A stretch of 64,000 nucleotides of DNA, taken from NCBI RefSeq assembly GCF_013426205.1, contig NC_089423.1, positions 992,001 through 1,056,000 on the forward strand. The letters are read 5' to 3'. The notes beneath the pieces were generated by a model. It worked only from the letters and a program-made list of their open reading frames with translations. It did not search any database and was not told where the DNA came from. Positions within the stretch are counted from its first letter, which is position 1; the number at the start of each line of letters is the position of its first letter. Source of the DNA: Metarhizium brunneum (taxonomy: Eukaryota > Ascomycota > Sordariomycetes > Hypocreales > Clavicipitaceae). Positions 3,781 through 63,387 of the stretch are shown here, piece by piece. Position numbers and translations under genes: made by a program.

Positions 3781-6070
3781 AAATAGAAAGGCCATTGGTG
3801 ATATTCCTCAACGCAAAGTGTTCGGCTGCGAAGCTGTAGTAATTTTCGTCGGCGGAGTAGAGTCCGGAGCAAGCACGGCCATGTCCATATATGCTCATGC
3901 GTAAAAACAGTCGTTGTGAGAAGCTGACGAGGAAGCTAATCACCGTACGCAACGAGAGCTGCGATGACTCTCCCGCCGATAACACATTTAGCATCAAACC
4001 TTGCGTCACCACTCATTACCGAGAAGATATGCGTAAAGCGGCAACTCGACTGATCCGAGACTAAGAGGACGGACCCTATATTCGTAAAAACACCCACAAT
4101 CTTTTGCTATTCTTGAGGCACTCATATAGGTGTGCAAACATAGAAACGCAACAAGAATACAGACTCCTATCTTTCCTTGCAAGAAAAGCATGGTAGTTAT
4201 TAGAGACTGTGAAGGTCTCTGAAGGCTTTGATTGTGCTCGTTTTGCTTCGGCAGATGCTGGAGACCCTTCGTTCCTAGGCAAGCGCTCCAAGAAGGACCG
4301 TTTCGGGGATCTTGCCGTGTCTTGCAGCTAGTTGAGCCTTCTGCGATAAGCTTAAATATCTATTCTTGCTCTATTATCGTGCTTTTAACGCAGAGAAACT
4401 TGTACTACTAACCCGAAACCCATTCAAAGCGCCAGTAATTATAGCCGTAGCGACGTCGGAAATGCACAATTCAGCCTATATTATTCCTCTTAACAGCGGG
4501 TAGTAGCTTCTTTACCAGGAACATGGTATATGCCGATATGCCTTTTCAGATTTGTTCTCCAATCCATTGAATGACTCATGTACGTCCGGCTCATGCTTAC
4601 CTGTTATTCTAGTACTTGTATCCTTAAAACTAGAGTTAATAGCTTCTTCGTAGATATAAATACCTTTCTTGCAAAGTGCAGTATTATTTTTGCGCCATTT
4701 AACAGCTGGCTCCCAGAGTCAACGCGAGATCGGGATAGCAGGGGTGGGCGTTGAGATGATGAGCAATTTCTCCGCTAAAGATGCATGCTGCAAGACCTGT
4801 TCCGGACTAGTCTTAGGTAGGTAACGGACGAGAACCCATTCTAGTAGTTGCATGTGGTCATAGTCGCTTTTATTTGGGTATATAGACGCATCATTCGATC
4901 CCGGCGGGGAGCCCATCGCAGAGCCGTTTCCACAACTAGGCACTTTAAAAGCTGCCTAAGAATACTCTCGCAGTGGAACAGCTTACCCGAGAACCAGAAC
5001 CGCTGAATGTGTACATACAAGCATCGACAAGTATAGTAACATTGAAATGACCCTGCGGGGAAGAAGTGCGTACTAGGGCAGCCGCATACTGCAGCCACGT
5101 CCCATGTGAGAATTCACAGCCAGCCACAAGGCTTCGCTTAATGTCCTTGGACGAGTAAATGCTGGCACTTCGCCTTCTGGAAAGCGCAACTCAACCGCCA
5201 CACATTCGGCTATCGCGCGGTTTGGTACCGACAACGCCCGGCTAGTCGTCCAAGCCAAGGAGGAAATTTTTTCTTTGGTTGAGCTGCCAAGCTGTGGCTA
5301 AGCCCTTGCTACAGTGGGAGACAAAGCATCAACCAGATCAGGTACCTGGCTACGGCGCTCTATCCACGAAATGGTGCCGATTGAGCAGCCATGGACAGAT
5401 TGGATAGCGGCATCGGTCCTTGACTGAAGCCATCTATCAAGGGACTTGCGGCCTCTTTTATGACAGTTGGCAATGACCTTGGCTAGCTTGTGTCCTCAGA
5501 GGCGATCAAGCACTCGAGGGGCATTCAAATGCCTCAAACCTCCGCCCAGCGCTGAAGCAGCACGTGTGGCAGCTTGTGCGGCAGCTAGTGTTTTGGATAC
5601 AGCGCATCCCGGCCTTCATCCGTTCACAAATCCTGCGGTACATGAGGACCAGCAAGGGCCTGCCTGCTTTAATCACGCAATTATGGCCATGGCTGCGTGT
5701 ACAAGCGGCGCCATCCATGTCACTGTGGAAATGAGTGGTGTGAGAATGTCAAACGGCCTGGTGGCTGAGGCCAGACGCTAGTATTCCGTCTGAATCAGTC
5801 GTTCCCCCCTAAAGCAACGTGGCAATCTCCAGCACGGTGTGGCATCCCATAGTCGACTAGCCAGAGAGAGGCCGTGGGCGTTGCCTTGGACAAGCCGTCG
5901 CCGCCACGGGATGTCGCATACCCGAATGTGTCAGAGACTGACCTACCAGGAGCTCCCCGGTAGCCGATATATCGTTTGGACCCAATCTCTGCACTCCGGA
6001 CGGCGCTGTTCTGTTCCCCTTCATGTTCTCTTCACCCTCGACTTGACGTTCAACCGGACGCCCAGAAAAC
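3781..6070. other. gene-free stretch, partly AT-rich
   Basis: No supported gene. About 3.8-4.7 kb is AT-rich with many TA steps and stops in all frames, as in transposon remnants mutated by RIP, but no transposase or reverse transcriptase motif is readable. The 104-codon plus frame at 5467-5781 has no recognisable features and I do not call it. The last few hundred bases are the likely promoter of the rhodopsin-family gene. Confidence 0.4.
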
Positions 6071-7521
6071 ATGTCGCCCATGTCGCCAATCTCGCCCACC
6101 GAGCCGTTCGAGCCGAACGCGGCACAGCGAGCGTTGGTCGTGTCCGTAACGGCAGAAGAAGTCGCTCTCTGTGTGATTGGTATCGCGGTGACAATCATCA
6201 GGGTGTGCGCCCGGGCCGTGGCCGTGGGTTGGAAAGGCCTCCGAGGCGACGACTACTTGGTCACGGTGGCAGCGGTACGTACGGCCGTTATTCGCGCACG
6301 CCGCGCATGGTTAACACATTCCAGCTCTTCTACGTTTCCATGACGGCCTTTTCAACCTCTCTCAACCACGTCTCCGGAGGCGCGACAAATGCCGGCCTGA
6401 CGGACAACGAGCGAGCGGCGATTCTACCCGGCAGCCTCGCGTTTGAGCAACGGTGCGTCCTCGACAATGAGCAGCAGGGTGAATGAGCAGTTTCTGACTT
6501 CAGCAACAGGGTGCTTGGCTCCAAGATGCAGATTGGCGGTTGGTTGAGCTACGTCATGTGTCTTTGGACGCTGAAAGCATCGCTCTTGGTCTTGTACCTT
6601 CGATTGACGGTGCGTAGCCACGTATATATGAGAGCGTTTTTGTTTTGGTATATGTGAGTTGACACATGCCGCAGGAAGGGCTCGGACGGCACTACACCGT
6701 CCGCATTTATACTGGCTTTGGCCTGCTTATTGCCAGCTGGATCACTGTCCTGGCAAACCTCTTCCTCGTATGCCGCCCCTTCCACAAGAATTGGCAGATT
6801 CATCCAGATCCCGGGAGTAAGTTGGTCTCGTCTCTACACTGCTTGAGCCACGGCGTGCTGACTGTTCCGCTCCTAGATGTCTGCCAGCCTACCGTGTCCT
6901 TCCCGGTCGTCTGGGTCAACCTGTCGCTCAATGTCCTTACGGACTTTTATCTGATATCCATACCAGTCCCCTTGCTTTGGCAATCCTCCATGAGAGCCGT
7001 CAAGAAAGTAGGGCTCATGGTGCTATTTAGCGGGGGCTTGCTGGTTGCGGCCTGCGCAATACTTCGTTCCACCATGGTTTATGACGTAGGTCCCCCCCCT
7101 TTCTTCCTTGCAAAACTGTCAAGCTCCGGGAGTCATTGACCAATATATTGTGTTGTAGAGACTATCAGGTCGCACCGGGATTCCTTGTTTGTGGGCTGCT
7201 CGAGAAGTCTTCATCGCGGTTTTCGCGACCAACCTCCCCATCGTGGCTCCTCGCGTGGTGCGTTGGCTCGCCCCAGTGGTTGGCTCGATACTGTCGCTGG
7301 GTTCCCAGAAAATGGATCAAGTGTCCAGTGGCTTTCGGACGGTGGGCGGTGGCGGTCCAAATAAACCGAGCTGGCGTGGCCGTGGCCCGCCTACTCCAAA
7401 CCCTATCACGGACCTGACCTCCATCTCGACCTGGACCTCGACCTCCACCGAGGTGGATATGAAGGACGCCACCGATCTACATGTTGTCGAAACCTCCATC
7501 GACAAGTCGGCCAAAGGCTGA
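6071..7521 (+). CDS. rhodopsin-family seven-TM integral membrane protein
   Basis: Six exons can be joined with matching phases: 6071-6274, 6325-6452, 6510-6609, 6675-6816, 6877-7085, 7159-7521, giving 381 residues. All five introns have GT..AG ends and are 50-73 bases. The product shows seven hydrophobic segments, the WKGLRGDDYLV motif after the first one, and DPGNVCQP formed across the fourth intron. Both motifs are typical of the large fungal family of rhodopsin-domain / PTH11-like membrane proteins (not retinal opsins). The C-terminal tail is hydrophilic, rich in Ser and Thr. Members are thought to be plasma-membrane receptors or sensors; the ligand is unknown. The N-terminus has no extracellular CFEM domain. 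The DPGN junction makes the exon model quite secure. Confidence 0.85.
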
Positions 7522-13822: not shown

Positions 13823-15059
13823 TAGCACGAGAGATTTCAGTGATGACATCATTGGGCAGTTAGCGATGCAGCGCCGCCGCCGCAGCAGCGGCGATGCCAA
13901 ACTATTGTAGGAGCGGGCTAGACATGGACAACTCGAGACCGAATGCGACAGCATTCATGGGTGGTCATTACACTTGTCGTATTGCCATATTGCAACGACA
14001 TTCATACAAGTCAATGTATCAATGGCCATTTGCAGCGCACACCGCATTGTATTTCTAACACCTCTCCCGATACTAGCTGGGTACGTGGCGCATGCACGGA
14101 TGGTTGAGGAGGGGGCTTGCATGTTGGAATCGGAGGCACAGTATCTCGTCTCTTTGCCGTATGGATCTTCTTGTCCGCCCGCCAAACGCTTCTGCCCAAA
14201 GACTGCCCAGCAGAGAGTTGAATGGGTTTCTTTCCGCTGACCCCGTACTCGATCGACCAAAGAGCGGGCTGGACGTATACTACAATCCAGGGCAGAATGC
14301 TGCTATGTGATCTCTGCCACCCCACAGATTGATCAAATGCCAACTCGGCGAGAAGGCGAGGAAGGGTACAGCGCCCGTGCCCGGAAAGGGTCCCGCTTTG
14401 GTGCCCGTCGGGCCAGTTTAGGGAGGTGCTTAGCTGCGCATCTGCCTGTGTGTCTCGGAACATTGCGAAGCACGCGTGCCAGTAGATTGCACGTGGCCTG
14501 CGGACAGTGGAGTCGGGTGGGAGTAATTGAAGCCCCCAGAGCTGATGGATGCTGCTTCGTGTTCCCGTCGGCACCAAGCAAGACCTTGGAATGATGGCTA
14601 CGTAAGCGGCTGCACTCGGTAGAGAAGCTGGAGAGGAGAGGGGCAACTTCATCTTGAAACCAACATGAGGTCGACTCGGGATGCGGCAACCTCGCCCGAT
14701 TACGTGACATTTGCTGGCCAGCACATCAATCATCCACAGGCCCCCTGATGGTCACTCGCGGCCAGTGTGACCTTATCTGGTCCACTCGGGCGCCACTTCT
14801 CCAGTGAATGACTCCAAGTCATGCAGCCTCCCCGTGCGTCCCCGCTGACTAGCCTGGGCCCGTCTCGGGCTTCCGTTATCGCAGCACTAGGCCAGTCCAA
14901 CATCGCGTCAGCCTCATTGCCTACACATCCCCTGTGCAGTCTCTGTCTGCTTTTCCATCTTCTTTTCTCTCAGCGGCATACACACAAAACAGTGCAAAGT
15001 CTCGTTACTCTACCTCGAACGTTTCCCACGGCGGCCGTCATCGGTGTTATCGAGTGACG
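13823..15059. other. intergenic region, promoter of MCH1-like gene
   Basis: No supported gene. The 240-codon minus frame (14011-14733) is open but has no recognisable features and odd composition; I take it as chance. The last 250 bases are C/T-rich, as in many fungal promoters and 5' leaders. Confidence 0.5.
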
Positions 15060-16835
15060 ATGCCCAAGTCCTCGTCTTCCGATGCCCTCACCCGCGCCGC
15101 TCCAACCCCCATTGCCCAAGTCATAGATAGCGAAGCGTCATCAACCTTCAGCGCCTATGACGACGACGACAGCTTCGACCAGGCGTCAGCCCAGCGCCGC
15201 CGCCTGCTCTGCCAGAAACAAGCGGTCCGCATCATCTCCCTGATATTCGCCACATGTGCTGCGCTCTGTGCCGGCTCCATCGTCGTCTTCTCGCTATACG
15301 CCCCGCGGTTCCAGTCCCGCCTACGATACACCCAGTTCCAGGTCAATGGCCTCGCCATCGCAGGCTCCGTGGCCATGTACCTGCCCATCTCCGTCGTGGG
15401 ATACGTATGTGACCGCGTTGGTGTAGCGCCGCTTTCGCTCTTGTCAGCCGTCTTGTTCGGAACCGGCTACGGCACTGCCGCCGCGATCTACCGAAAGCTC
15501 GATATCGACTACAACGTCCTGGGGAAGCCGCATGGCGTGGGAAATGAATGGTCGTACCCGGCCATGATCTTCGCCTTTGTGTGCATCGGTTCAGCGACTT
15601 GCAACATGTACATGGCCTCGGTGTCGACGTGTGCCAAGAACTTTGGCAGGGGCAAATACAGAGGGCTGGCTCTGGCCATGCCCATTGCAGGATTTGGCTT
15701 GAGCGGCATGTGGCTGAGTCAATTCGGGAGCCGCTTCTTGTACGAAACAAAGCCCGACGGGTCCAGGGGCGATATTGACGTATTTCGCTTCTTCCTCTTC
15801 CTGGCCATTGTGCTCTCCGTCATTGGCTTCCTCGGCTGCTTCCTGCTGCGTGTTGTCGATGAGCAGGACCTCATCGAGGAAGCCATCGAGGAACTGGAAT
15901 CGAGCGGCCTGCTGAATGGCAGTTCGCTCCTCGGCCGGGCACATCAGGGCTACGGCTCGGCCGCCTCCGCGGCCAACCAGGCAAACATGGAATCCAGCTC
16001 CTTGCTAGACCCGTCAAAGGACGACGACGCGCAGTGGAAGAAGAACCGGGTTCTCAACGCGGAGACGCTTCAGTTTCTCACCGACCACACCATGTGGCAG
16101 TTCGCCCTGGGCTTTCTGCTCATGATTGGTCCTGCGGAAGCCTTCATCAACAACCTTGGAACCGTCATCGGCACCTTGACGCCGCCCGAAACCGAGGGCT
16201 TTGGCGAGACAACGTCGGTCGCTACGCACGTCTCCATCTTTGGCGTCACCAGCACCATTTCCCGACTGCTCATCGGCAGCCTGACCGACTTGCTTGCTCC
16301 CGCCCCGGAGACGCAGCACCTCCAGCTCTCGTCCTCCCACCACAGCATCCACCCGTCCTCGCGGCTCAAACGTCTCACCATCTCCCGCGTCACGTTTATC
16401 CTCTTCTTCGCAATGCTCATGTCGATAGGCTTCATATTCCTCGCCTCGGGCGTCGTGCAGAATCACGCCGACCGCTTCTGGGTTGTTTCTGGTCTAGTGG
16501 GAGCCGGCTATGGCGCCGTCTTCAGCCTGGCGCCTCTCATTGTCACCATCATCTGGGGCGTAGAGAATTTTGCTACCAACTTTGGCATCATCGCCATGTT
16601 GCCGGCTCTTGGGTCGACCTTTTGGGGGCTCATTTACTCGGGAATCTACCAGGCCGGCGCCAAGGGGTCCCCGCCATTGTCTGACGGCACGGGCGACGAT
16701 TTGTTTTGCTACGGCAAACACTGCTACTCGACGACATTTTGGGCGGCGGGAATATGTGTCTGGGTCGGGTGTGTGTCGGTGTTGTTTGCATGGAAGGGCA
16801 GAGGCGGTTGGAAGGAACGCGAGATTGTGATTTGA
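15060..16835 (+). CDS. MCH1: MFS transporter, MCH1-like
   Basis: A single exon of 591 residues from ATG 15060 (GTGACGATGCCC context). The frame is open further upstream but without an ATG in good position. After a Ser-rich hydrophilic N-terminus of about 55 residues there are roughly 12 membrane segments in two blocks of six. Between them is a hydrophilic loop with acidic stretches and LLGRAHQGYGSA. The first block has FSLYAPRFQSRLRYTQFQVN and YVCDRVGVAPL, the loop 2-3 type motif of the nodulin-like/MCH1 group. Yeast Mch1 resembles monocarboxylate transporters but no such transport has been shown for it, and it is vacuolar. So substrate is open. Length and layout match Aspergillus MCH1 proteins. 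Confidence 0.8.
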   Translation: MPKSSSSDALTRAAPTPIAQVIDSEASSTFSAYDDDDSFDQASAQRRRLLCQKQAVRIISLIFATCAALCAGSIVVFSLYAPRFQSRLRYTQFQVNGLAIAGSVAMYLPISVVGYVCDRVGVAPLSLLSAVLFGTGYGTAAAIYRKLDIDYNVLGKPHGVGNEWSYPAMIFAFVCIGSATCNMYMASVSTCAKNFGRGKYRGLALAMPIAGFGLSGMWLSQFGSRFLYETKPDGSRGDIDVFRFFLFLAIVLSVIGFLGCFLLRVVDEQDLIEEAIEELESSGLLNGSSLLGRAHQGYGSAASAANQANMESSSLLDPSKDDDAQWKKNRVLNAETLQFLTDHTMWQFALGFLLMIGPAEAFINNLGTVIGTLTPPETEGFGETTSVATHVSIFGVTSTISRLLIGSLTDLLAPAPETQHLQLSSSHHSIHPSSRLKRLTISRVTFILFFAMLMSIGFIFLASGVVQNHADRFWVVSGLVGAGYGAVFSLAPLIVTIIWGVENFATNFGIIAMLPALGSTFWGLIYSGIYQAGAKGSPPLSDGTGDDLFCYGKHCYSTTFWAAGICVWVGCVSVLFAWKGRGGWKEREIVI

Positions 16836-19875: not shown

Positions 19876-22800
19876 ATGAAGGGGTTTATCCGGCAACTCG
19901 CCAGCCTCATCTACAAAAACCTACTCGTCTCCATCGCAAGACGGCCGCTCGGCTTCCTCCTCTCTGTCTACGGATTTCCACTTGCTATACTGGGTCTTCT
20001 CCTCGCCATCCCCTCGTTTCTCCCGCAGCTCAACACGTTTGGCGTGTCGACCGCCGAGCCCATCAAGCCGCTCGCCTCGACCGTCACCCGCAAGCTTGTC
20101 ATTGTCAAGCGACCCGACTTGGGCCACGATGTCGACGCGGTGATTCGCACCTTTACCCAGCCCGTCCAAAGGGACCTTTTGGTTTTCCACGACGACGAGG
20201 CGTCACTGCCGTCGGTGTGCCTCCCCGACACCCGCGGAGTCAGCGACTGCCACGCCATTGTCATCTTCAAGGACTCGCCGTTGACCACGTCCGAGGCACG
20301 TCTGGCCAATCCTCCCAATGGAAATCATACATGGACGTACACGATACAGGCGGATCCCGCGCGGGACAACCGCAACTTCGACATCAAAAAACACAAGAGT
20401 GATCAGGAGGACTTGTATATGCCGCTGCAGCTTGCCATCAACAATGCCATTACCAACTCGACCATTGTCCCGGAAACCGTCATGTTCACGCCCCAGGAGG
20501 AGGCCAACGAGGACCAAAAAAACTTCAACTCCAACGCTGCCCTCATCGGCAGAATTTACACATTTGCGCTCATCGCGGCCCACTTCACCATCATATACGG
20601 CCTGGCGAGCTTCATCACCTCGGAGCGGGAATCGGGCATGTCCCAGCTCATCGACTCGATGGGCGGCGGCACCGCCATTATAGCCCGCGTCCTGAGCTGG
20701 CTGCTCACCCTCGACCTGGTTGCTCTGCCGTGCTACATTGCCATGGGCGCATTGTATCAGCGCCTGGCGTTCCCCAGCTCGAGCGCCGGCACACTCATCG
20801 GTTGGCAGATACTGCTCGGCTTTGCCGTCAACAGCTCGACGGCCTTTGCCTCGGCCTTCTTCTCCAAGTCGCGCGTGTCCGCCGTGTATATCATCTTTGT
20901 GTTTCTCGTCCTGTCCATTGCCGCGCAGATGTACGCCTCGGAGTCCCGGCCGCACCCTCAGCATGCGACGGTGGCGGCGCTCTCGTTTCTGTTCCCCAGC
21001 GCCAACAGCGTCTACTTTACCCAGCAAATGGCCCTGTGGCAGCTGGCCGGCCTTGCAGCAGACCTTGGCAAGATGCCCGCCGAGACGGCCGGGCTCTTCT
21101 CTACCTCGTACGCGGTCAGCCAGAGCAGCCTGTTGCTTTTCCTGGGCCTCAGTGTGTTCATCTATGCCGCGGCTGCCGTTGGGGTCGAGAAGATGCTCCA
21201 CGGCATCCATTATCGAAAGAGACGGTTTACTCCGCGGCCATCGATGGACTCGACGGGCGCCGTGGTGCAGACTCACGATTTGAAGAAGCGGTTCAAACCT
21301 AGTTTGTGGTCGCGGATATGCTGCTGCTGCTGCTTTTGCGGTAGGAAGAAGACGGTCGCGGCCGTAGACGGCATCAGCTTCGAAGCGCAAAGGGGCCAGA
21401 TCATGTGCCTGGTCGGGCCCAACGGGTCGGGCAAGACGACAACCCTCCACATCATGTCCGGCTTCATCAACCCGACCGAAGGGTCAGTCGCGCTGGAAGC
21501 CGCGCCGTCGCAGGTCGGCATCTGCCCGCAGCGCAACACCCTGTGGGACAGCCTGACGGTCGGGGAGCACGTCCGCATCTGGAACGGCATCAAGTCTGGC
21601 AGTCGGTCGAGCGAGGAGCTGGAGCAGCTGATCGGGCAGTGCGACCTCTCCCCCAAGCGCGGGTTCAAGGCGCGGGAGCTCAGCGGCGGCCAGAAGCGCA
21701 AGCTGCAGCTGGCCTGCATGTTTGTCGGCGACTCGTCCGTGTGCTTGATTGACGAGTGTACGTCCGGGCTGGATCCCCTTTCGCGGAGGGCCATCTGGGA
21801 GATTCTCCTGCAGCAGCGGGCCAGGCGCAGCATCATATTCACGACGCACTTCCTCGACGAGGTCGACATTCTCGCCGACCACATCGTCCTCCTCGCCGGC
21901 GGCAAGATCAAGTGCCAGGGCGCGCCGGCGCAGCTGAAAAGCCAGCACGGTGGCGGGTATAAAGTCCTTGTTCCTCCCTCCGCGCCTGATCTGGGCCACG
22001 GATACCCCCCTACGACGCACCAAGACAGGACCATGTACGCGGTTCCCGACTCGGCAGCGGCCTCGCGCCTGGTATCCATGTATCTGGGCGCGGGGGTGCG
22101 CGACGTTGCGATTTCGGGGCCGCAGTTTGAGGACGTGTTCCTGAACCTCCTCCAAGACGATGTCGCCCTCGACCCGTCCAAGAGCTTGGCAAACGTCGAC
22201 CCGTACTTTAGCATGAGCCCGGGGACGACGACGTCTTCATGGACCCAGTTTCGCGTTCTCTACGGGAAGCGCTGGAACGTGCTGACTAGATTCTGGAGTC
22301 CGTACCTGTTCGCCGTCATTGTGCCGCTCGCGGTTACGTTTCTGGCCGGGGGCATCATCAAAGACTACAGCCCCCCCGGCTGTGACGCGCTGCAGGATAC
22401 CTTTCGCATGGACTACGCGGGGTTGAAGTGGAACGAATCGTGTCCGCAGTCGGGGACGTGCGACCGGCTTTCTATTTCGCCGAGCCAGGCCAACGCGACG
22501 CTCTTTTCTCTGGTGAGGAACGGCTACCGGGAGCTGTCTACTGTAAGCGCCAAGGCATACAGCGAGTTTGCCGACGTGCAGACGTCGCGAGATGATGTGC
22601 TCAAGCACATTGAGCAGAATAAGACGGCCGCCGGGTACGGCGGCATCTTTGCCGGAACGTCTACGGAAGCGCCCATGATTGCGTACCGGATCTTGACGTT
22701 TGGCGACCAGTCCGGCTCCCAACTCCTGGATATCTGGAGCCAGATGCAGGGAGGGCTGGAAATCAACTCCTCCCAAGAGTCCATGCCCAAGACGCGCAGG

Positions 22801-24905
22801 GTACGTTGTGTAATGTGATTTCTCGTGTATTCAGTCTACAGGCTAACCAGGGCGAACTCACCAGGCCGCGGACGTCGGGGGCGTCGCGTACCTCCTCTTC
22901 TTTACCTTTGTGCAAATATTCTACCCTGCAAGCTTTGTTCTGTACCCGGCCATTGAGAAATCGCGCAAGGTCAGGGCAGTGCAGTACGCAAACGGGGTTC
23001 GGCGAGCGCCCCTTTGGGCCGCCTATGCTGCCTTTGACTTCCTCTGGGTTCTCATCGTCTCGGTGGGCGTCATGGGCCTGAGCGCCTTGAAGCTCAACTT
23101 CAACGGTCCCATGCTCATCCTGTTGCCGACTCTGGCGCTGTACGGGGTTGCCGCCACGCTGATGGGATATGTTGTTGCGCACTTTACAGACGGGCCCCTC
23201 AAGTCATACTTGGCGACTCTGGGGATCGGCTTCCTTTCGTGGATTGTAGTAGCGATTGCGACGCTGGTAAGAGATGCCCTCCTATTCCGAGGTTGCATGA
23301 TTCATCAGGGCCACTAACACCATGTGCAATAGGTTAATGACAGCCCATCGAGCCTGACCGCCATCGCATTTGGCGCCGACCTCTTCTTACCCATTGGAAA
23401 CATCTTCAGGACGCTTCTGGTCGGGCTGAACTTGAAGGAGGCGGGCTGCAAAGACGGAAGGCCCGTAGAGGTAGGGACCATCTACAGCTTCGGCGGCCCG
23501 CTGCTGTACCTCTTCTTGCAGATCTTTGCGCTTCTCATCATCATTACGTGGTTGGAAGGCGGCTTTCCGTCCCTCGGCTCCTGGCGGTACAGCCGTGTCT
23601 CGAATCCGCATAGGTTCTCGGACGTGGAACTGGCCGACATTTCCGCGTATGAAGCGCAGCTTGGGGGCGACCCGGTATCGGAGGAGGCGTCGCGCGCGGA
23701 GAGGACGGAGACGGACCTCCTACGGGTGCTGCACGCCAGCAAACACTTTGGCTCGAACAAGGCCGTGGATGATGTTACTTTCGGCCTGCCTCGAAGCGAC
23801 GTCATGGCCCTGTTGGGTCCCAACGGTGCCGGCAAATCCACCCTGGTCAACATGATACAGGGCGAATTCTCACCAAGCCAGGGCAAGATGCTGCTTTGCC
23901 AGGAAGACAGCCGTTCCCCCTCGTCCAAGAAACATTTGGGAGGTGTGTTTGTTGCGTAAAACCAATCAGCCCTTGTGGCATTGTTTGCTAACTGTTTTTC
24001 TTCTTGCCAGTCTGCCCTCAATATGACGCGCCCGACCTGATGAACACGCGCGACCATTTGTACTTTTACGGCCGTATCAAGGGGATACAAAAGGTCAAGG
24101 AGAATGTCGAGTACCTCATGGCCAAGCTCGACCTCACGCGCCACGCGCGAACCCAAGCCTCCAAGCTCTCGGGGGGTAATAAAAGAAAGCTCATGCTGGC
24201 TCTGGCGCTGATGGGCACCCCATCCATCCTCGTGCTAGACGAGCCAACATCGGCCATGGACGCGGTGGCAAAGCGCCAGTTCTGGAAAGTGATCCAGGAG
24301 ATTGCCAAAGATCGCTCTGTCCTCCTCACGGTACGTGATGCCACCTCCCTTGCCCAACGTGTCCGAGGCGTCTACTCTAACCAAACCCCCAGACACATAG
24401 CATGGAGGAAGCCGACGCCCTCTGCACACGCACCGTCATCATGGCGCGCCGGATCCTGGCCATCGGGACCACGCAGGCGCTGCGTCAGCGGTACAACAAC
24501 GAGTACTTTGTCAATCTTGTTCTCGGGTCCGCGCCGAAATCAACGGCAGCCGAGATGGGGCAGGTGACGGAGTGGGTGAGGCGCGCGGCGCCAGACGCCC
24601 GGTTCGAGCGCGAGGTGCTCGGCGGCCAGGTCCGCTTCACGCTGCCGACGGCCGTGAACGACGGGGGGAGCACGGGCGGGCTGCCGATCGCGCGACTCAT
24701 GGAGGCGCTGGAGCAGAGCAAGCGGGCCTTGGGGATAGAGCACTACTCCGTCAGCGGGCCGACGCTCGAGGACGTGTTCCTGAGCGTGGTCAGGGAGAAC
24801 AATGTCGAGGAGGAGAATGGCGCGGAGAAGAAGAGGGCGCTGCTGGACGTGAGCCGTGTGAGGGTGCGGTTTCCCGGAAAGGGGAGAGCCTGGTGCCGCC
24901 TGTAG
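19876..24905 (+). CDS. ABCA-type full-length ABC transporter
   Basis: Five exons, 19876-22800, 22865-23266, 23333-23942, 24011-24330 and 24393-24905, join in phase to 1589 residues. The layout is TMD-NBD-TMD-NBD: a membrane segment near residue 30, a large loop, then a membrane block (residues about 225-440). NBD1 follows with Walker A GPNGSGKT, Q-loop CPQRN, signature LSGGQ and Walker B CLIDE. A second membrane block runs across the first two introns. NBD2 has Walker A GPNGAGKS, signature LSGGN, Walker B VLDE and the H-loop TTHS, which is formed only after removing the fourth intron. Both sites look catalytically intact. NBD1 has Cys where DEP is usual (DECTSGLDP). ABCA proteins mainly move lipids; the substrate here is unknown. 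Nothing in the sequence ties it to the synthetase gene 4 kb to the right. Confidence 0.9.
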
Positions 24906-25866: not shown

Positions 25867-26874
25867 TCAGCGCACTCGGCCGCCCGCCATAGTGGCCTCG
25901 ATCAAATCGTGCCCAATGTCAAACTGCTCGCCGTGCGGACAGTCGAGATTCTCAACGGCAACTGCGCGCCGTCCCGTCAGACAGTCGTATCCCAGAAGAC
26001 AGAAGAATCAAACTTACACCACTCCAAGGTCGCTTCTGGATGCGGCCCAACGAGCCCGACCCAGCCCTCGCCATACTTGGTCAGCGACGCAGCCACCCTG
26101 CCGCCGTGGGAGTACCGGCCCAGCACAATGGCCGTCTCGCTCTCGCGCAGGCCCCGAATCACAGCGCCCTCCTGGAAATACAGCCATCGGCCCGCGGCGG
26201 TCCGGCCGGCCTGGGGCCCCGTGGCAAAGCGCCAGTCGACCTGGACGATGGCGTCGGCGTCGGTCGTCACCTGCGCGCCCTCCTGGTCGTTCTCGGCGTC
26301 CGTGTCGGCGCCGCGGGGCAGCAGCCCGAACCCCGGCGTGTGCCCGGCGAGATAGGCGCCCAGGCAGAAGCCTACGTAGCGGCCGCCGCGGGAGACGAAC
26401 CTGCGGATGGCGGGCGCAAAGGCCCTGGTCTCGGCCCAGGCGTCGTCGAGGTCTGTGGTGGAAAAATTAGTCGCCGGCGTCGGACAAGAGTCTGGGGTTT
26501 GTTTTTGCGTGTGTGGTGTGCGGCTGCTGTCGGCATGATGCGGCAGCAGCAGGCAGGTGATGTTGGCGCATGGGGGTGCCTTTGCGCCACGAGGTGGTGC
26601 AACGAGCTGAAAAATAGATACATGTATGGACTGCGACAGGCGCCGTGGGAAGCTGTGCATGAGAGTGAATGAGGCTGGACGTACCCGGGCCCCCCGGCTG
26701 CGCGTACAAGTCTACCTCGCTCAAGGTTTCGTGCGACACTTGGACGGCCTCGCTTGGGCCGGCGTACTGGACCTCGAACCGCCGCGGGCAAGACTCTAGA
26801 AGTCTGGCGACGGCTTCGGGCAGGCCGTGGCTGCTCGCGGGCCCGCGATACACGAGAGCGCGTGGCCGGGGCAT
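25867..26874 (-). CDS. class-I glutamine amidotransferase-like / BPL_N domain protein
   Basis: Three minus-strand exons, 26874-26685, 26452-26018 and 25961-25867, join in phase to 239 residues. Splice ends are GTACGT..CACAG and GTAAGT..GCGCAG. The protein starts PRPRALVYRGPASSHGLPEA and has AQPGGPDLDDAW across the first intron. It also carries the nucleophile elbow GFCLGAYLAG, with the cysteine where glutamine amidotransferases have their catalytic Cys, and GLVGPHPEA before the second intron. This matches the N-terminal domain of fungal and yeast biotin-protein ligase (BPL_N) found alone as a small protein. No ligase catalytic domain follows; the gene ends with a short exon encoding ENLDCPHGEQFD. 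Its reaction is unknown. The intron of 232 bases is long for this window but the phases agree. Confidence 0.85.
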
Positions 26875-28966: not shown

Positions 28967-31900
28967 ATGGATAGCCAAGGCACCCAGGTCCACGGCGACC
29001 TCGGACACGCAGACATGGCTCATCAAACACAACGGCAGCATTCCACCGTCCTCGCGGACAACGCTGCCATATACCCATATCAAGAACCCGCCCAGCCTCG
29101 CACTCTGGTGGACATATTCGACGCCTCCGTCTCAGCGCACCCCGCCGCTGCCGCCATCGACAACGGCACCTCCCAGCTGAGCTACAAAGAGCTGTCGGAG
29201 CAAGTTGCCGCGCGGGCGAAGCAGCTGCGAAGTGCCGGCATCGGCGTCGGCGACAAGGTCGGCGTCCGGATCACCTCTGGATCGATAGAGCTGTACGTCG
29301 GTATCCTGGGCATCCTCGCCGCCGGAGCCGCCTACGTCCCCGTCGACGTGGACGACCCCGACGAGCGAGCCCGGCTCGTCTGGGACGAAGCCCGCGTGAG
29401 CGCCGTGCTGACGGACGACGCTACGCTCACGCCGCACTACACCCCCGTCGGCAGCGCACGACCCCGGCGCCCCCAGCTCGAGGACGACGCCTGGGTCATA
29501 TTCACCTCTGGCTCGACAGGCAAGCCCAAGGGCGTGGCCGTCAGCCACCGCAGCGCAGCGGCCTTTGTCGACGCCGAGGCGCAGCTGTTCGTGCCAGAGC
29601 GGCCGCTGGGCCCGGGGGACCGCGTGCTCGCCGGGCTATCAGTGGCATTCGACGCCTCGTGCGAGGAGATGTGGCTCGCGTGGCGGCACGGCGCGTGCCT
29701 GGTGCCCGCGCCGCGGGCCCTGGTCCGGGCCGGCGCCGACCTAGGCCGGTTCCTCTCGTCGCAGCGCGTGTCCGTCGTGTCCACGGTGCCGACCCTGGCG
29801 GCTCTGTGGCCGGCCGACGCCCTCCGCGGGCTGCGCCTGCTGATCCTCGGCGGGGAAGCCTGCCCCGCCGAGCTGGCCGCCCGGCTCGCCCGCACCGCCG
29901 GGTCGGTGTGGAACACGTACGGCCCGACCGAGGCCACGGTGGTGTCGTGCGCCGCGCCCCTCGCGCCCGGGGACCCGGTGGTGCGCATCGGCCTGCCGCT
30001 CGCGGGGTGGCGGCTGGCCGTTGTCGGGCCCGACGGCGACCCCGTGGCCTGGGGCGACGAGGGCGAGCTGGTCATCGGCGGCGCCGGCGTCGCGCGGTAC
30101 CTGGACCCGGAGAAGGACAGGGCCAAGTTTGCGCCGGCGGCCGTGTTTGGCGGCGAGCGCGCGTACCGCAGCGGCGACGTGGTCCGCGCCGAGAGGCGGG
30201 GGCTCGTGTTTGTCGGCCGCGACGACGAGCAGGTCAAGCTGGGCGGGAGGCGCGTCGAGCTGGGCGAGGTCGATGCCGCGCTGCTGACGCTGCCGGATGT
30301 GTGTGCCGCGGCGTGCGCCATCCGCCGCAGCGAGGTCGGCGCCCAGGTGCTCGTGGGGTATATTGTCTGCAGTAACGGGAGGGCGCCCGATGCCACGGAC
30401 CGGGAGATCCTTCGGCGGGTGCTCCCCGCGACTCTGGTGCCCATGCTCGTCGCCGTCGACGACCTCCCGGTCCGCACGTCCGGCAAGGTGGATCGCAAGG
30501 CGCTGCCGTGGCCGCCGCCGCCGCCGCCTACCCCGGCCCCGGCTCCACAATCGTCGGCCGGCGATTTCCCTTCCGGGAATGTGGATAAGGAAGAGGCCGA
30601 TGGCACCACGGCATGGGTCGCCGAGCAGTGGCGCCGCGTTCTCGGCATGCCCCCTTCGTGCGACTCCAACTTTTTCGACCTTGGCGGGACCAGCTTGGGC
30701 GCTGCGCAGCTCGTCTCCCAGCTCCGCCAGCGATGCCCGACTCTCTCGGTCGCCGACGTCTACGAGAACCCGGGCCTGGCCGCCATGGCTGCCCGCGTGG
30801 ACGACCTCATGGGCACCGGACACGTTGATCGCGAAGTGGTGCCGACCCCGCGGTGGCTGATGGTCATCCAGGCTGCGATTCTGCTCCTCGAGATGACCTT
30901 CCAGGGCGTCCGGTGGCTGACGGGGCTGGCATTTGTCAAAAAGATCTTTGTCGTCGTTCTCGGGCCGGGCACCTGGGCCGGTAGGTACGCGCTGCCGTGG
31001 TGGGTGCTCGCCGTCATCTGGGCGGTTTTCCTCACGGCGCCCGGGAGACTGCTCACGACGGCCGGAGTCGTGAGGACGCTCTGCTTTGGCATCGCGCCGG
31101 GCACCTACCGCCGGGGCGGACTGCGTCACATCAGGCTCTGGGCCGCGGAGCGCTTCGTGGGACTCGGCGGCATCGCGTCCGTCGCGGGCACGCCGTGGTG
31201 CCGATACTACGCGCGGCTGCTGGGGTGCCGAGTGGCTTCCAACGTGCAGCTTCACGCTCTTCCACCTGCAACCGGGCTGGCGAGCTTCGGCGCAGGCTGT
31301 GCCGTGGAGCCCGAGGCCGATGTTGCCGGGTGGTGGCTCGATGGCGACAAGCTACACATCGGGGCCATCACAATCGGTGAGGGGGCCAGGGTTGGCGCCC
31401 GCAGCACTCTCATGCCAGGCACGATTCTGGACCCCTTTGCCAGTGTTCAGCCCGGGGTCAGCGTCCGGGGCATAATCCGGGCGTCGGACGCCTCTCTCGC
31501 CCCCAAGGGCAACGAGGATGGTGTTGGGGCCAGGACTAGAGAGGGCCTCGGGATATGGCTCTTGTACACGAGCACTCTATTGATGCTGGATTTCCTCCCT
31601 GTTCTCCTGGTTGCGCCTATTTTTTGGCTCGTTCCGACCATCGTTGGTGACTACAGCAACTTTCGCGAGATGTGTCTAGGCCTCATCACAATGGCAGCGC
31701 CAGGTTCCGTCCTGGGGCTGTTGTTGTACTCGACCTCCATCATCCTGCTCACACGGACGGCTAGTCTCGCCCTCCGCCCCGGCCTCTACTCATGGCATGG
31801 GACTACGGCGTGGGCAGCTTGGCTGACACATTATTTGATGATGAATACCAGAACCGTCCTTTTCCCCGTCTTTGCCAGCCTATTTACCCCTACGTGGCTG

Positions 31901-33016
31901 AAACTCCTTGGTGCCCGAGTAGGTCGCCATGTTGAAGCGTCGACCGTTGTCCCCATCCCATCGCTTCTCCGCGTTCAAGACGGCAGCTTCCTCGCCGACG
32001 ACGTCTTGCTGTCGCCGTTTGAGCTCGGTGCCGGCCAGGTGCGAATCGGCACTGCAACGGTCGGCGTCAAGTCATTCATCGGCAACTCAGCCATTGTCGA
32101 CCCCGACGTCGAAGTGCCGGACGGCGTCTTGATTGGCGTCTTGAGCTCGGCTCTGGATTCAAAGCAGATGGGGCCCGAGTTCTCGTCCGGCTCGTCGTGG
32201 CTCGGCCGACCGCCCATGGCCATACCGCGTCGCATCACGACCATCGTCGACCAAAGCCGCACCTTCAACCCTCCGGCCAGGCTGGTCTTGGCCAGGGCGC
32301 TGGTTGAGTCATGCCGGCTGTTTCCACTATTACTCTCCGGCATGATTGGCACCTTGGCCGGAATAGCCATGCTGTACCTCCTCATCACCTTTGGCATCGG
32401 CTGGGCCGTCCTGGCCAGCGGCGGACTTCTCCTGGGGTCCGGACTCGTTGCCTGCACTCTGGCCACTCTGGCCAAGTGGCTGCTGACGCCGAATATTCGC
32501 GCTGGCCATCAGCATCCGCTATGGAGCTCCTTTGTCTGGCGCAACGAGCTTGCCGATACCTTCGTGCAGTCCTTGGCCGTGCCCTGGTTTGTCTCCATGT
32601 GCTATGGCACGCCGTTCCTCAACATGTGGATGCGCTCTCTGGGTGCCAAGATTGGACGCGGCGTCTGGCTGGACAGCCATCTGCTGCCGGAAGCCGATCT
32701 GATTACGCTTGAAGACGGCGCTACAGTGAACCGAGGATCCGTCCTCCAGACTCACCTCTTCCATGACCGGCTTATGCGTCTGGACAAGGTGCACCTCGAG
32801 GCAGGGGCAACGCTCGGCCCATATGCCATTTCACTGCCTGGTACAACTATTGGTGCGGGCACGACTATTGCGCCTACTTCTCTCGTTATGCGCGGGGAGC
32901 AAATTCCGGCTGGTACACGGTGGCATGGAAACCCTGTTCGGCCGTGGAGTATAGAAAAAGATGAAGGCCCAAGCCCCAACTCTAGTTCGGATAATGACTC
33001 ACTGTCTCCCGTTTGA
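28967..33016 (+). CDS. NRPS-like synthetase, candidate epsilon-poly-L-lysine synthetase
   Basis: One uninterrupted frame of 1349 residues. Residues about 45-520 are an adenylation domain: A3 IFTSGSTGKPKG at 178, A4 FDASCEEMW at 228, A5 NTYGPTEAT at 316, A10 TSGKVDRKALP at 504. A Pro-rich linker leads to a carrier domain with FFDLGGTSLG (phosphopantetheine Ser about 576). From about 640 to the end, membrane segments alternate with hexapeptide/left-handed-helix-like stretches such as GEGARVGARSTLMPGT and GAGTTIAPTSLVMRG. There is no condensation, reductase or thioesterase domain. This is the layout and length (about 1320 residues) of bacterial epsilon-poly-lysine synthetase, a membrane enzyme that joins lysines through the side-chain amine; fungal homologues have been reported in Epichloë. 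My by-eye pocket D229 A230 E233 S272 I293 G295 T317 V325 V326 K507 is near the lysine code. Very GC-rich. Product is inferred. Confidence 0.85.
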   Translation: MDSQGTQVHGDLGHADMAHQTQRQHSTVLADNAAIYPYQEPAQPRTLVDIFDASVSAHPAAAAIDNGTSQLSYKELSEQVAARAKQLRSAGIGVGDKVGVRITSGSIELYVGILGILAAGAAYVPVDVDDPDERARLVWDEARVSAVLTDDATLTPHYTPVGSARPRRPQLEDDAWVIFTSGSTGKPKGVAVSHRSAAAFVDAEAQLFVPERPLGPGDRVLAGLSVAFDASCEEMWLAWRHGACLVPAPRALVRAGADLGRFLSSQRVSVVSTVPTLAALWPADALRGLRLLILGGEACPAELAARLARTAGSVWNTYGPTEATVVSCAAPLAPGDPVVRIGLPLAGWRLAVVGPDGDPVAWGDEGELVIGGAGVARYLDPEKDRAKFAPAAVFGGERAYRSGDVVRAERRGLVFVGRDDEQVKLGGRRVELGEVDAALLTLPDVCAAACAIRRSEVGAQVLVGYIVCSNGRAPDATDREILRRVLPATLVPMLVAVDDLPVRTSGKVDRKALPWPPPPPPTPAPAPQSSAGDFPSGNVDKEEADGTTAWVAEQWRRVLGMPPSCDSNFFDLGGTSLGAAQLVSQLRQRCPTLSVADVYENPGLAAMAARVDDLMGTGHVDREVVPTPRWLMVIQAAILLLEMTFQGVRWLTGLAFVKKIFVVVLGPGTWAGRYALPWWVLAVIWAVFLTAPGRLLTTAGVVRTLCFGIAPGTYRRGGLRHIRLWAAERFVGLGGIASVAGTPWCRYYARLLGCRVASNVQLHALPPATGLASFGAGCAVEPEADVAGWWLDGDKLHIGAITIGEGARVGARSTLMPGTILDPFASVQPGVSVRGIIRASDASLAPKGNEDGVGARTREGLGIWLLYTSTLLMLDFLPVLLVAPIFWLVPTIVGDYSNFREMCLGLITMAAPGSVLGLLLYSTSIILLTRTASLALRPGLYSWHGTTAWAAWLTHYLMMNTRTVLFPVFASLFTPTWLKLLGARVGRHVEASTVVPIPSLLRVQDGSFLADDVLLSPFELGAGQVRIGTATVGVKSFIGNSAIVDPDVEVPDGVLIGVLSSALDSKQMGPEFSSGSSWLGRPPMAIPRRITTIVDQSRTFNPPARLVLARALVESCRLFPLLLSGMIGTLAGIAMLYLLITFGIGWAVLASGGLLLGSGLVACTLATLAKWLLTPNIRAGHQHPLWSSFVWRNELADTFVQSLAVPWFVSMCYGTPFLNMWMRSLGAKIGRGVWLDSHLLPEADLITLEDGATVNRGSVLQTHLFHDRLMRLDKVHLEAGATLGPYAISLPGTTIGAGTTIAPTSLVMRGEQIPAGTRWHGNPVRPWSIEKDEGPSPNSSSDNDSLSPV

Positions 33017-49117: not shown

Positions 49118-50318
49118 TTATTTGGCGATTTCAACTCCACCGGTGGCTCCCAGGGCCTTCTTCAAGTCACCATAGATGGCGAACTGACCGGCAGTCAAGG
49201 TACCAACCATGAAGAGACGAGCGCCAATACCAGTGTAGGAGCCACGGAAACCAAGCTCCTTGGCAATCTTGATGAGACGGGAAGTGGTGCCCTCACCAGG
49301 AAGACCCTTGGTCTTGTTGATCTTGGAGAGCATAGTGTCGGCGGGCTGAGAGACAATGGCGGCAGCGAAACCAGCGGTCAAACCGGCCGCCAGGTTGGCA
49401 ACGGTCTGCATACCATCCGAAAGGGTCTCCTTGGGGTACTGGCGGAAGATGGTCTCAGCAGCCTTCTCGTAGACCACAAACTTGGCCATGGTATAGGGGA
49501 TCCTAGCGAATTGGGTTAGTCGCGTTCACGAGGCATCGGGCACATCGTGGCCCGGGGCCGGCGGTTTCAGGGACACTCACTGCTTGAAGAGGATAGGACC
49601 GAAACCAGCGTAGAAGGCGCCGATACCCTCGTTCTTGAGCATCTTGGAGAAACCTCCAATCAGGCCGTTGGCATAGGTGGGCTCGGAGACGAGACGGATA
49701 CGGGTGGCCTCGAGAGGGCATAGGGCGATGTCAGCGAAGAACTCGGCGGCGGCGGAAGAGGCGAGGTAGACGGCGGTGCGGTTCTGCGAGGCGGTCTCGT
49801 AGCCGAGGGTGTTGATCCACTGCTGCTTGAAGAATTCGTAACCGCCGAACTTGAAGGCTCCCTGGAGGAAGTACCCGGCAAAGGTAGGGCCGATACCAGT
49901 CAGGAGAGCGCCAGCACCCTCGTTCTGGATGACCTGGCGGAAACCGCCAATCATGCCACGGTTGTAGGTCTTGGGGTCGAGCTGGATACGGGTCTTGACG
50001 CTGTTTTTTTGCAGAGAAACGTCAGTATACAAGCGGCGTGTAAAAGGGCCAAGGGGGACGCAATTGCGCTCGGCCTCTCAAACAAAAGGGGTTGCGGATG
50101 ACGCCATATGCAGCAGAAGGCGTCGGGATCGAGAGGAAAAAAACATACACATCGACAGGAGTAAGACCACCGTGGGTGACGGAGCAGCAGACGGCACCGG
50201 CAAGGGCGAATCGGGAGTACAAGGCCAGGCCGGAGAGCTGGGCAGGCTCGGCGGCCTTGACATTCTGGACGATGGCATCGACCTTGGCCGAGCCAGTGGA
50301 TTTTGCGTCGGTGGCCAT
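49118..50318 (-). CDS. MIR1: mitochondrial phosphate carrier
   Basis: Three exons on the minus strand, 50318-50149, 50000-49581 and 49502-49118, join in phase to 324 residues. Donors are GTATGT and GTGAGT; acceptors ACAG and GCTAG. The product has the three mitochondrial-carrier signatures: PVDVVKTRIQ formed across intron 1, PLEATRIRL, and [11 protein letters not shown]. It has the typical phosphate-carrier stretches [19 protein letters not shown] and [12 protein letters not shown]. It imports phosphate with protons across the inner mitochondrial membrane for ATP synthesis. Of the yeast proteins it is nearer to Mir1 than to a general carrier, judged by the [11 protein letters not shown] motif. 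Short N-terminal extension without an evident cleaved presequence. Assignment is secure; the Mir1 versus Pic2 choice is less so. Confidence 0.93.
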
Positions 50319-52673: not shown

Positions 52674-53925
52674 ATGACCGATTACAAGTTCGAAGGATGG
52701 ATGGGCCTGGATGCCGAGTCCGCCAAGGGCAACATGGTCTGGCAGGAGTACGAACCTAAGCCATGGGAGGAAACAGATGTCGATATCAAAGTCACCAATT
52801 CTGGTATCTGTGGTTCAGATCTGCACACCCTCAGATCCGGCTGGGTAAGCATAGAATCCCGTGTTTTAACTGTTGAAAATACCTTGGGTCGGATGTTCAA
52901 AAGACTTTGCCCTGGCGGTTTCTGTCTATCAGGTCGAATATAAATTGCTGACATCTGTCTTACTGCACAGGGCCAAACCCCCTACCCTTGCGTTGTCGGA
53001 CACGAAATTGTTGGTGTAGCCGTTCGGGTCGGTTCCAAGGCCGAAGGTGGCATCAAGGTCGGTGACGTGGTTGGCGTTGGTGCCCAATCCGACTCTTGCC
53101 TCGGCCGTGATGGCCCCTGCAACGAATGCAGCCATGATGCTGAGAACTACTGCACCAAGGTTATCAACACATACGCCTCCGTACACAGGAATGGTGGGAA
53201 AGGATATGGCGGCTATGGTCTTTACCACCGGTGCCCGTCGCACTTTGTGATTAAGATTCCTGACGGGCTTGCCCCGGAGTACGCCGCCCCTATGCTCTGC
53301 GGCGGCGTGACTGTGTACTCGCCTCTCAGGCACTTTGGAGCTGGCCCGGGCAAGAAGGTCGCCGTGGCGGGGGTTGGTGGTCTTGGACACTTTGCTGTCT
53401 TGTTTGCCAAAGCTTTGGGCGCAGACGAAGTTGTAGGAATTTCCCGAAAGGCGAGCAAGAAACAGGAGGCTCTCGATCTGGGCTGCGATGACTACATCGC
53501 AACAGAAGATGACAAGGACTGGGGAAAGCACAATGCCCGCCGGTTTGATCTCATCATCAGCACCATTTCCTCCGAGAAGGTAAGCCGAACCTCTATTTTT
53601 GCTATTGTGCATGATGACTTGACTAACATGCGATTAGATGCCTCTAAGCAGTTACATTGACACACTGAGGTTGGATGGTACACTCGTCCAGGTTGGAGCC
53701 CCCGAAGGTCCCGTGCCCTTGAACATCTTTAGCATTATTCCTGGCCGTCGCCGAATTGCCGGATCCGGTATTGGCAGCCCGAAGGAGATTCGAGAAATGT
53801 TCCAGTTGGCCGTGGACAAGAAGATCAAGCCATGGGTTGAGAAGCGCCCAATGAAGGATGCTAACCAGGCCATCGTTGATTTGGAAGACGGCAAAGCAAG
53901 ATTCCGATACGTGCTGCAGAATTAG
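52674..53925 (+). CDS. zinc-dependent NADP alcohol dehydrogenase, ADH6/CAD-like
   Basis: Exons 52674-52844, 52971-53579 and 53638-53925 join in phase 0 to 355 residues. Introns have GTAAGC..ACAG and GTAAGC..TTAG ends. The catalytic-zinc region has GICGSDLHTL and GHEIVG; the structural-zinc loop shows the four cysteines of CLGRDGPCNECSHDAENYC; the nucleotide fold has GVGGLGHFA. The sequence order and the KGYGGYG segment fit the cinnamyl-alcohol / yeast Adh6-Adh7 group, which reduces aldehydes using NADPH in the cytosol. All catalytic residues that I can see are present. The exact aldehyde cannot be told. Flanks give no cluster context. Confidence 0.92.
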
Positions 53926-61150: not shown

Positions 61151-63387
61151 ATGACCAACTTGAGGCCGTCACCGCCCAAGCTGGCGATACCAGCCTCGCA
61201 CGGCTCGCCGTCTGCAGTTAGTGCTACAATACAGACAGGACGTCCCTCCATGTGGAGTAAATCTGCCCAGAGGAAGATGACGCGCCTTTATGTGTATACC
61301 ACACTACCATTGGCCAAGATTGTCGCTTTGGTTCATTCTCACACGCCTGGGACGGCGCCTGGGTGAGCTCATACTCATTTCATACATCTTCTTATGCGAG
61401 GTGTCGTACTGATGTGCAGCATAGTCGTGAGTCGGGCCACAAGAAACTCAACATCCTCCTAGACAAGGAGCCACGATGGTTACACCCAAAGACTGATGAA
61501 GATATGGACCGTCGCATAACTGAACTGGCCAACTCTCCCACCAGACTCAAGTCGGCTGAATATGCTGCCTTTGGCCCTTCGCGATCCATCTCCGACAATT
61601 TGTCGATATCCCCCAGCCCTCAGAGACTCGAGACGGAAGACAGCGTGAGCCCAGCGCCTTTTGATGTCTCGCCTCTGCATCGACCGGCCGCGGCTTTTGC
61701 CTCACACCAGCCAGCAGATGGAGCCTTGAACTTTTGGGTTTCCCCTGGCGCTCGGTCCTCCATGGCAATGTCACCAGCTGAAGATGCAGCCGATCCACCG
61801 CATTTCGCAAAGTTCCTCCGCCAGACGACATGCCTCTCTAACGCCACCAGCAATACTACTGGTTCGTTCCAACGCGTTCTCTCCGATTTCTCAGAACCTT
61901 ACGTGCAGACTGTCAAGAGGCTCGTGAAACGATTTACGGCTCCAATGGGTAGTCGGCCCGGCTTGTCGCCTTACTCAGAAGGCAGTTCTGCCATTGAAAC
62001 CTGGGCTGATGAGGAGGATTGCCCTCCGGAGTTCGATGGTCGGCCCTTTCCTATACCAAGCGATTTCCTAAATCTGGACGAGTACCAGAGCACGGGAGTG
62101 TGCTACTCTACCCATGATGTTCATGATAGACGCCGATGTCTTTGTTTCATGCCTCTGGATACTTGTGTGCTTCCTTGGGTGACTCGTCAAGGGCTCACAC
62201 CTGTTGGGCAGCGACTACTGTCCAACGGACCGAGAGAGCAGGATTTTGGCCCCAGTGATTCTTTTGGTAACACCGTCTTGCACTTTCTAGCCGCCAGGGG
62301 TTCCTACGAGTTGGTTGAGCGTTCCTTGAGGAGTGACTTGTGCAAGTCCCGGATTGCAGCGAAGAACTCTGCCGGCCAAACGTTCCTTCACGTTCTAAAT
62401 GCATCGATTCTTAGAAATCCGGACCATGTCGAACATCTGTTGGACATCGTCACAGCAAGAGGCTATGACATTCATATGAGGGATCATTACGGTCGTAGCT
62501 TCTTCCATTTACTTCAAGCTGGAGGCCACCCAAAAGAGCTTATCCAGCGTGTCTCACGGCGTTGCGACGGCAACTTCCACATGGCAAGAGATGCGTTCGG
62601 CTTCACTCCTGCCAGAAATAGCTCAACCATGATGGAACTTGACGAACCAAATTTCGTCGGGCTTCAAGACTCGTTTGGTCCAGCGGCCTTTACCGACGCA
62701 GGGCTTACAAAAGAAAGCAAGCTCCTGGAAAATGTCCGCAAGGCAATGCTGAATCCTTATCTGCAGGACGAAGAGGGCCGCAATGGCTTGCATTGCCTGG
62801 CCATGGCTACTTTGAGTGAGGCTTCTGTGGTCAATAAGTACCATCTACAATCATCCCAGAGAGACAAGGTCACCAAAAAAGGAGCAAAGCCCGAAAGGGA
62901 ACTCGATTCTAGCTCGTCCAAGCTCGGGCTTCGCCTAGGGCTTCTCTCGGGGTTGTTGGACGCTGGCGTTGACCCTAACCAGCACGACAACAACGGCAAC
63001 ACGCCACTGATGACGTTTGTAGCCGAGCTGCCCGAGGAGGATGACTACAAGATTCCGCCTAGAATCTTGCAGCTGTTAATCGCCAGGGGGGCGAATATCC
63101 ATGCCAGAAACAGGCGTGGGGAAACAGCGTTACACATTGCCGTGCGGTGTGGAAGGAAGCTGGCGATGAGGGCGTTGTTTGAGAAGGGGGCCAACGTCCA
63201 CGCCAGAGACTCGGCAGGGAGAAGCCTGCTGGATGTTGCGGATGTTAAAATGCTGCACTGCGACAGCGACGAACACATGCGCGAGTATGCCCACTACGAG
63301 GCCTGCAGGGCTTGGTTGAGTGGGAAAGGTTTGGCGCTGCAGGGGCCAAGTGTTCTTGATGAATGGGGCGGGGGGGTTCGTGCCTAA
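61151..63387 (+). CDS. ankyrin-repeat protein, two exons
   Basis: Exon 1 61151-61362 and exon 2 61425-63387 join in phase to 724 residues, with an intron GTGAGC..CATAG. The nearby GCAG acceptor four bases earlier breaks the frame. The first 300 residues are Ser/Pro-rich and probably disordered. The C-terminal half has ankyrin-type repeats: DSFGNTVLHFLAARGSYEL, NSAGQTFLHVLNA, DHYGRSFFHLLQAGG, DEEGRNGLHCLAM, DNNGNTPLMTF, and NRRGETALHIAVRCGRK with GANVHARDSAGRSLLDVA. Some repeats are separated by longer insertions than usual. No NACHT or other effector domain is present, so it is more likely a scaffold or interaction protein than an NLR-type receptor. Partner unknown. Confidence 0.85.

Follow-up and report, generated by a model that had tools for sequence, protein, structure and literature searches.

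Epsilon-poly-L-lysine is a positively charged antimicrobial polymer and Metarhizium brunneum is an insect-killing fungus; the two come together in a gene, epls, at 28967-33016 on the forward strand of a 64,000-nucleotide stretch of the M. brunneum genome (contig NC_089423.1, positions 992,001 to 1,056,000, referred to here as the window), which very probably encodes epsilon-poly-L-lysine synthetase. In the bacterial enzyme, Pls, lysine is described as being adenylated, loaded onto the carrier and joined by three C units to free lysine or to the growing chain, repeatedly (PMC8949500). Among fungi, epsilon-poly-L-lysine was purified from Epichloë festucae in work published in 2020, where overexpression of epls is reported to raise or start production and to yield polymers whose length varied with the strain, from 8 to 33 units (PMC7179176); an earlier note on this DNA was correct in naming one characterised fungal enzyme from Epichloë. 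The Epichloë protein, Epls (EfM3.024590; BGC0002174), has the same layout as the M. brunneum protein, and its pocket is conserved with that of bacterial Pls according to PMC7179176. The delta-poly-L-ornithine synthetase PosA is a further member of the family, with a terminal-domain fold predicted to be alike (PMC10522769).

A comparative genomics paper of 2024 lists an epsilon-poly-L-lysine cluster for two M. brunneum strains, V275 and ARSEF 4556, using cluster prediction and sequence comparison without a product; it treats the V275 gene as orthologous to epls of Epichloë (reported 65% identity over 98%) and states that production is unreported in the genus (PMC11457142). These strains are of the same species as ours, and theirs is very likely the very same gene, with nothing known to differ. 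Similar clusters are stated to occur in most fungal species analysed (PMC13236867). The gene identification made here is correct but already known, and there is no new kind of enzyme; in calling the fungus a new source the earlier note overstated the case in view of the 2024 report, and in calling fungal members few it went too far, as 31 of the 120 matches listed for the protein bear fungal names. The product has been shown in Epichloë, a grass endophyte, but not in Metarhizium, an insect pathogen which also colonises plants, and the literature that we searched gave no account of Metarhizium producing polylysine.

The epls frame starts with ATG, has one terminal stop, and is uninterrupted and without introns over its 1349 residues. 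It encodes a protein far beyond what chance would produce, because a 97% identical protein of 1349 residues (P0002, the best match) aligns with 100% of its length. The gene and its main domains are placed as follows.

28967..33016 (+): epls, very probable epsilon-poly-L-lysine synthetase gene, single exon, 1349 residues
29063..30520 (+): adenylation domain, residues 33-518, by alignment to 7WEW (620 bits)
30614..30799 (+): carrier (thiolation) domain, residues 550-611 (PF00550, 48 bits, above cut-off)
30863..32938 (+): Pls/PosA terminal (polymerising, membrane) domain, residues 633-1324 (TIGR02353 and AlphaFold2 model)

A Pfam scan of the protein (E up to 0.001) recovered three families only: AMP-binding at 51-377, PP-binding at 550-611, and hexapeptide repeats. 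Condensation, thioesterase and reductase families were not found, as the earlier note had said for the first two of these. The NCBIfam model for the Pls/PosA terminal domain, TIGR02353, was matched in full (model positions 1-695 of 695, residues 633-1324) at 540 bits, where the cut-off is 423, and in a search of the whole M. brunneum genome it scored above cut-off at this place only; matches below cut-off also turn up in 13 of 14 control genomes, and such weak matches mean little. The phosphopantetheine attachment site is S576, and serine is kept here in all 121 aligned proteins (the query plus the 120 listed matches); the carrier-activating transferase family PF01648 has two matches in the genome. 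An adenylation plus carrier layout could also belong to an ordinary single-module enzyme, of the type resembling nonribosomal peptide synthetases (NRPS), that releases a small molecule, and M. brunneum has many other adenylation domains of NRPS type in its genome, where a search with the epls protein found one full-length copy and 36 further matches, all confined to residues 31-651 and with no more than 35% identity (34 of 104 candidates scored). We consider this scarcely credible given the missing reductase, thioesterase and condensation families, the complete Pls/PosA terminal domain, which contradicts it, and the 51-56% identity to the bacterial Pls-type proteins of our alignment, compared with 35% or less to any other adenylation domain that was scored in the M. 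brunneum genome.

The named relatives point the same way. A Metarhizium guizhouense protein named epsilon-poly-L-lysine synthase shares 94% identity over 69% of the query and is, among the matches listed, a close homologue with a functional name; other relatives are found in Metarhizium album (85% over 99%) and M. rileyi (81% over 100%), and the remaining best matches are named non-ribosomal peptide synthetase or hypothetical. In bacteria, a Streptantibioticus cattleyicolor protein named epsilon-poly-L-lysine synthase shares 54% identity over 1306 columns. Together with TIGR02353 and the substrate pocket, the name of the M. guizhouense homologue bears out the identity first proposed from the DNA letters, and neither of the two outcomes which the earlier note had given as refuting it was observed.

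The pocket of the adenylation domain reads DAESIGTVVK (D229, A230, E233, S272, I293, G295, T317, V325, V326 and K507), as the earlier note had read it. The positions were set from core motifs in their usual numbering. All ten residues are identical in an alignment to 7WEW, deposited as an epsilon-poly-L-lysine synthase, so that no other residue stands at a key position. This adenylation-domain structure, which we take to be from Streptomyces albulus, is the best solved-structure match by sequence (620 bits, with the next at 348.5), and the bacterial Pls that it represents shares the terminal domain family as well. The same ten letters are found in 115 of the 121 proteins; the others have V at the fifth position (n = 2), I at the ninth (n = 1), Q at the tenth (n = 1) or gaps in pocket columns (n = 2, including the M. 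guizhouense protein). The proteins deviating at one position are P0052 (Cladobotryum mycophilum), P0040, P0096 and P0117, and in P0052 glutamine aligns where position ten is usually lysine, possibly because of a gene-model or alignment error.

The pocket also bears on whether this member of the homopolymer family might use another diamino acid such as ornithine, diaminobutyrate (Dab) or beta-lysine. Position 2 has been linked with the substrate, with alanine going with lysine, methionine (as in PosA) with ornithine, and phenylalanine with diaminopropionate (Dap) or Dab (PMC10522769), and the M. brunneum protein has alanine here (A230), neither methionine nor phenylalanine. Two observations from the same paper weigh against lysine: most fungal sequences are set in a branch within the ornithine group, and a Met-to-Ala pocket mutant still preferred ornithine, so the residue at position 2 is not enough by itself to fix the substrate (PMC10522769). 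The agreement with 7WEW at ten of ten positions, and the polylysine made by the characterised Epichloë enzyme (PMC7179176), nevertheless make a different diamino acid very unlikely in our view.

Lysine therefore remains the substrate we favour, and the conserved anatomy of the protein suggests how it might be used. The adenylation domain would activate L-lysine with ATP and load it onto the carrier serine; a C1-C2-C3 unit anchored in the membrane, with the build of three left-handed beta-helix (LbH) acyltransferases in a row, would then join the carboxyl group of the loaded lysine to the amino group of free lysine or of the growing chain, repeatedly, to give an epsilon-linked cationic chain leaving the cell. 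While the lysine polymer is established in print for orthologues, we infer the activity of the M. brunneum enzyme, the chain length and the export of its product.

An AlphaFold2 model of residues 620-1349 supports this arrangement, with a mean predicted local distance difference test score (pLDDT) of 90.3 and a predicted template modelling score (pTM) of 0.90, and comprises three helix pairs and three beta-helix stretches (model numbering + 619 gives the protein residue), much as has been described for PosA (PMC10522769). Its best structural matches agree with an LbH-type C-terminus, and with the Pfam and TIGR02353 results they uphold the earlier description of a 1349-residue protein with adenylation, carrier and LbH-type membrane parts.

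30854..31081 (+): first helix pair, taken as membrane-spanning, residues ~630-705 (model helices 11-46 and 59-86)
31100..31540 (+): C1 unit (beta-helix), residues ~712-858, approximate limits read from the strands of the model
31547..31765 (+): second helix pair, residues ~861-933 (model helices 242-272 and 280-314; hydropathy 863-928)
31781..32251 (+): C2 unit, residues ~939-1095, approximate limits read from the strands of the model
32318..32485 (+): third helix pair, residues ~1118-1173 (model helices 499-523 and 525-554; hydropathy 1118-1173)
32510..32953 (+): C3 unit, residues ~1182-1329, holding the invariant QTHLFHDR motif (1261-1268)

Hydropathy at a threshold of 1.6 recovers five of the six terminal-domain helices; in the first pair it marks only the second helix (674-698). 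Within the C3 motif, H1263 is identical in at least 95% of the rows of both Pls proteins and a second family with an acyl-CoA-ligase-type domain (90 and 112 rows remaining once proteins that were short or lacked the carrier motif had been removed). Among five alignments from one comparison, the two to galactoside O-acetyltransferase cover H1263 and pair it with the histidine of a TH motif, at weak sequence scores (E about 0.002, 0.0019 for one); three alignments from another comparison do not reach it. We take the TH-motif histidine to be the catalytic base of that enzyme. Sequence comparison makes H1263 the strongest candidate for the base in amide formation, as a lead rather than proof.

An intact enzyme may nonetheless be encoded by a silent gene, with no polymer made under ordinary conditions. 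This is compatible with epls encoding epsilon-poly-L-lysine synthetase, and we regard it as a tentative possibility well short of an even chance. In E. festucae Fl1 the polymer is reported to be detectable only when vibA or epls is overexpressed (PMC7179176), and the unreported production in Metarhizium (PMC11457142) would fit as well; against this, the frame is complete, the pocket, carrier serine and invariant terminal-domain residues are all kept, and the gene is retained in M. rileyi, M. album and M. guizhouense at 81-94% identity (with the M. guizhouense protein covering 69% of the query), though a gene kept in this way may still be silent in culture. Overexpression of vibA is said not to have raised epls transcription (PMC7179176). 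In the M. brunneum genome, NDT80/PhoG-type matches (the family of VibA) occur at three places. Production of the polymer, if it takes place, would mean that a fungus used in biocontrol secretes a compound which also serves to preserve food, and this would bear on how M. brunneum competes against other fungi and bacteria on roots and insects.

A phylogenetic analysis of 77 rows placed the 31 fungal-labelled rows (the window protein, the unnamed 97% match and 29 named proteins) on one side of a branch of the un-rooted tree with 100% support in the Shimodaira-Hasegawa-like approximate likelihood ratio test (SH-aLRT), and the 34 named bacterial rows on the other, with nine of the 12 unlabelled rows falling on the fungal side and the other three on the bacterial side. 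All 26 bacterial loci are from Actinomycetota, and epls shares 48-53% identity with the proteins of these loci. Transfer from an actinobacterium to a fungus is the likeliest history, since the identity to bacterial proteins is far above that to other adenylation domains of the same genome and the gene has no introns, though the direction is only suggested by these comparisons. Composition gives little support for transfer: third-position G+C is 0.79 in epls (0.88 in the adenylation part and 0.73 in the terminal part), and the neighbouring transporter has 0.80.

In a quick tree of 84 rows, for which seven members of the fungal family with the acyl-CoA-ligase-type domain served as the root, the fungi are nested next to six rows from the bacterial side (P0055-P0059 and P0061) with 100% support for the branch, which would fit a bacterial donor. 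However, the rooting is not settled by this tree, because the outgroup branch is long (about 7.5 changes per column), support at the deepest forks lies between 26 and 58%, and a search constrained to keep the 34 named bacterial rows and P0055, P0056 and P0057 as one group gave a tree with a log-likelihood 12.67 higher (p value of the approximately unbiased test, p-AU, 0.642). For these reasons we rejected a settled direction or donor for the transfer between actinobacteria and fungi. Our trees were made without a characterised ornithine, Dab or Dap enzyme. Ustilaginoidea virens has two different Pls-type proteins (P0011 and P0014) which are placed apart in the tree, perhaps reflecting a duplication or a second acquisition.

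The surroundings of epls in the window include transporter frames upstream and a divergent frame matching the N-terminal part of biotin-protein ligase (BPL_N).

14934-16835 (+): frame of the major facilitator superfamily (MFS) type, upstream of epls
19876 to ~24902 (+): full-size ATP-binding cassette (ABC) transporter frames with ABCA features (ABC2_membrane_3 twice, ABC_tran twice), upstream
25980-26711 (-): BPL_N frame (36 bits against a cut-off of 24), divergent from epls, upstream
49121-50077 (-): mitochondrial carrier frame
52944-53657 (+): zinc-type alcohol dehydrogenase frame
61363-63387 (+): ankyrin-repeat frame

The ABCA R1 match of the ABC transporter (19876-24902) is weak and below cut-off. 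Downstream of epls there is a stretch of about 4.4 kb in which the longest frame has at most 159 residues (these frames lie outside the Pfam scan), and the next two longer frames beyond it have no Pfam match. No peptidase was seen among the 20 window frames scanned with Pfam, a result limited by introns and unscanned frames. One could imagine that epls, the BPL_N frame and the ABCA-type transporter form a small system unseen in bacteria, in which the neighbours could help with tolerance or export and the polymer could act on roots or insect cuticle, but we think this unlikely.

Elsewhere in the genome, a second protein (L010:1363-5217 and 5618-6844, both on the reverse strand) has an acyl-CoA-ligase-type domain followed by a terminal domain that resembles that of Pls but has diverged from it. 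A profile comparison with Pls gave 99.9% probability at about 22% identity, and the protein shares 99% identity with an entry titled 'peroxisomal-coenzyme A synthetase [Metarhizium brunneum]'. All of its organism-named relatives among the 120 listed are fungi, including Fusarium, Trichoderma, Colletotrichum and Verticillium, and it is a possibility that this protein is a membrane transferase or polymerase for an acyl unit other than an amino acid.
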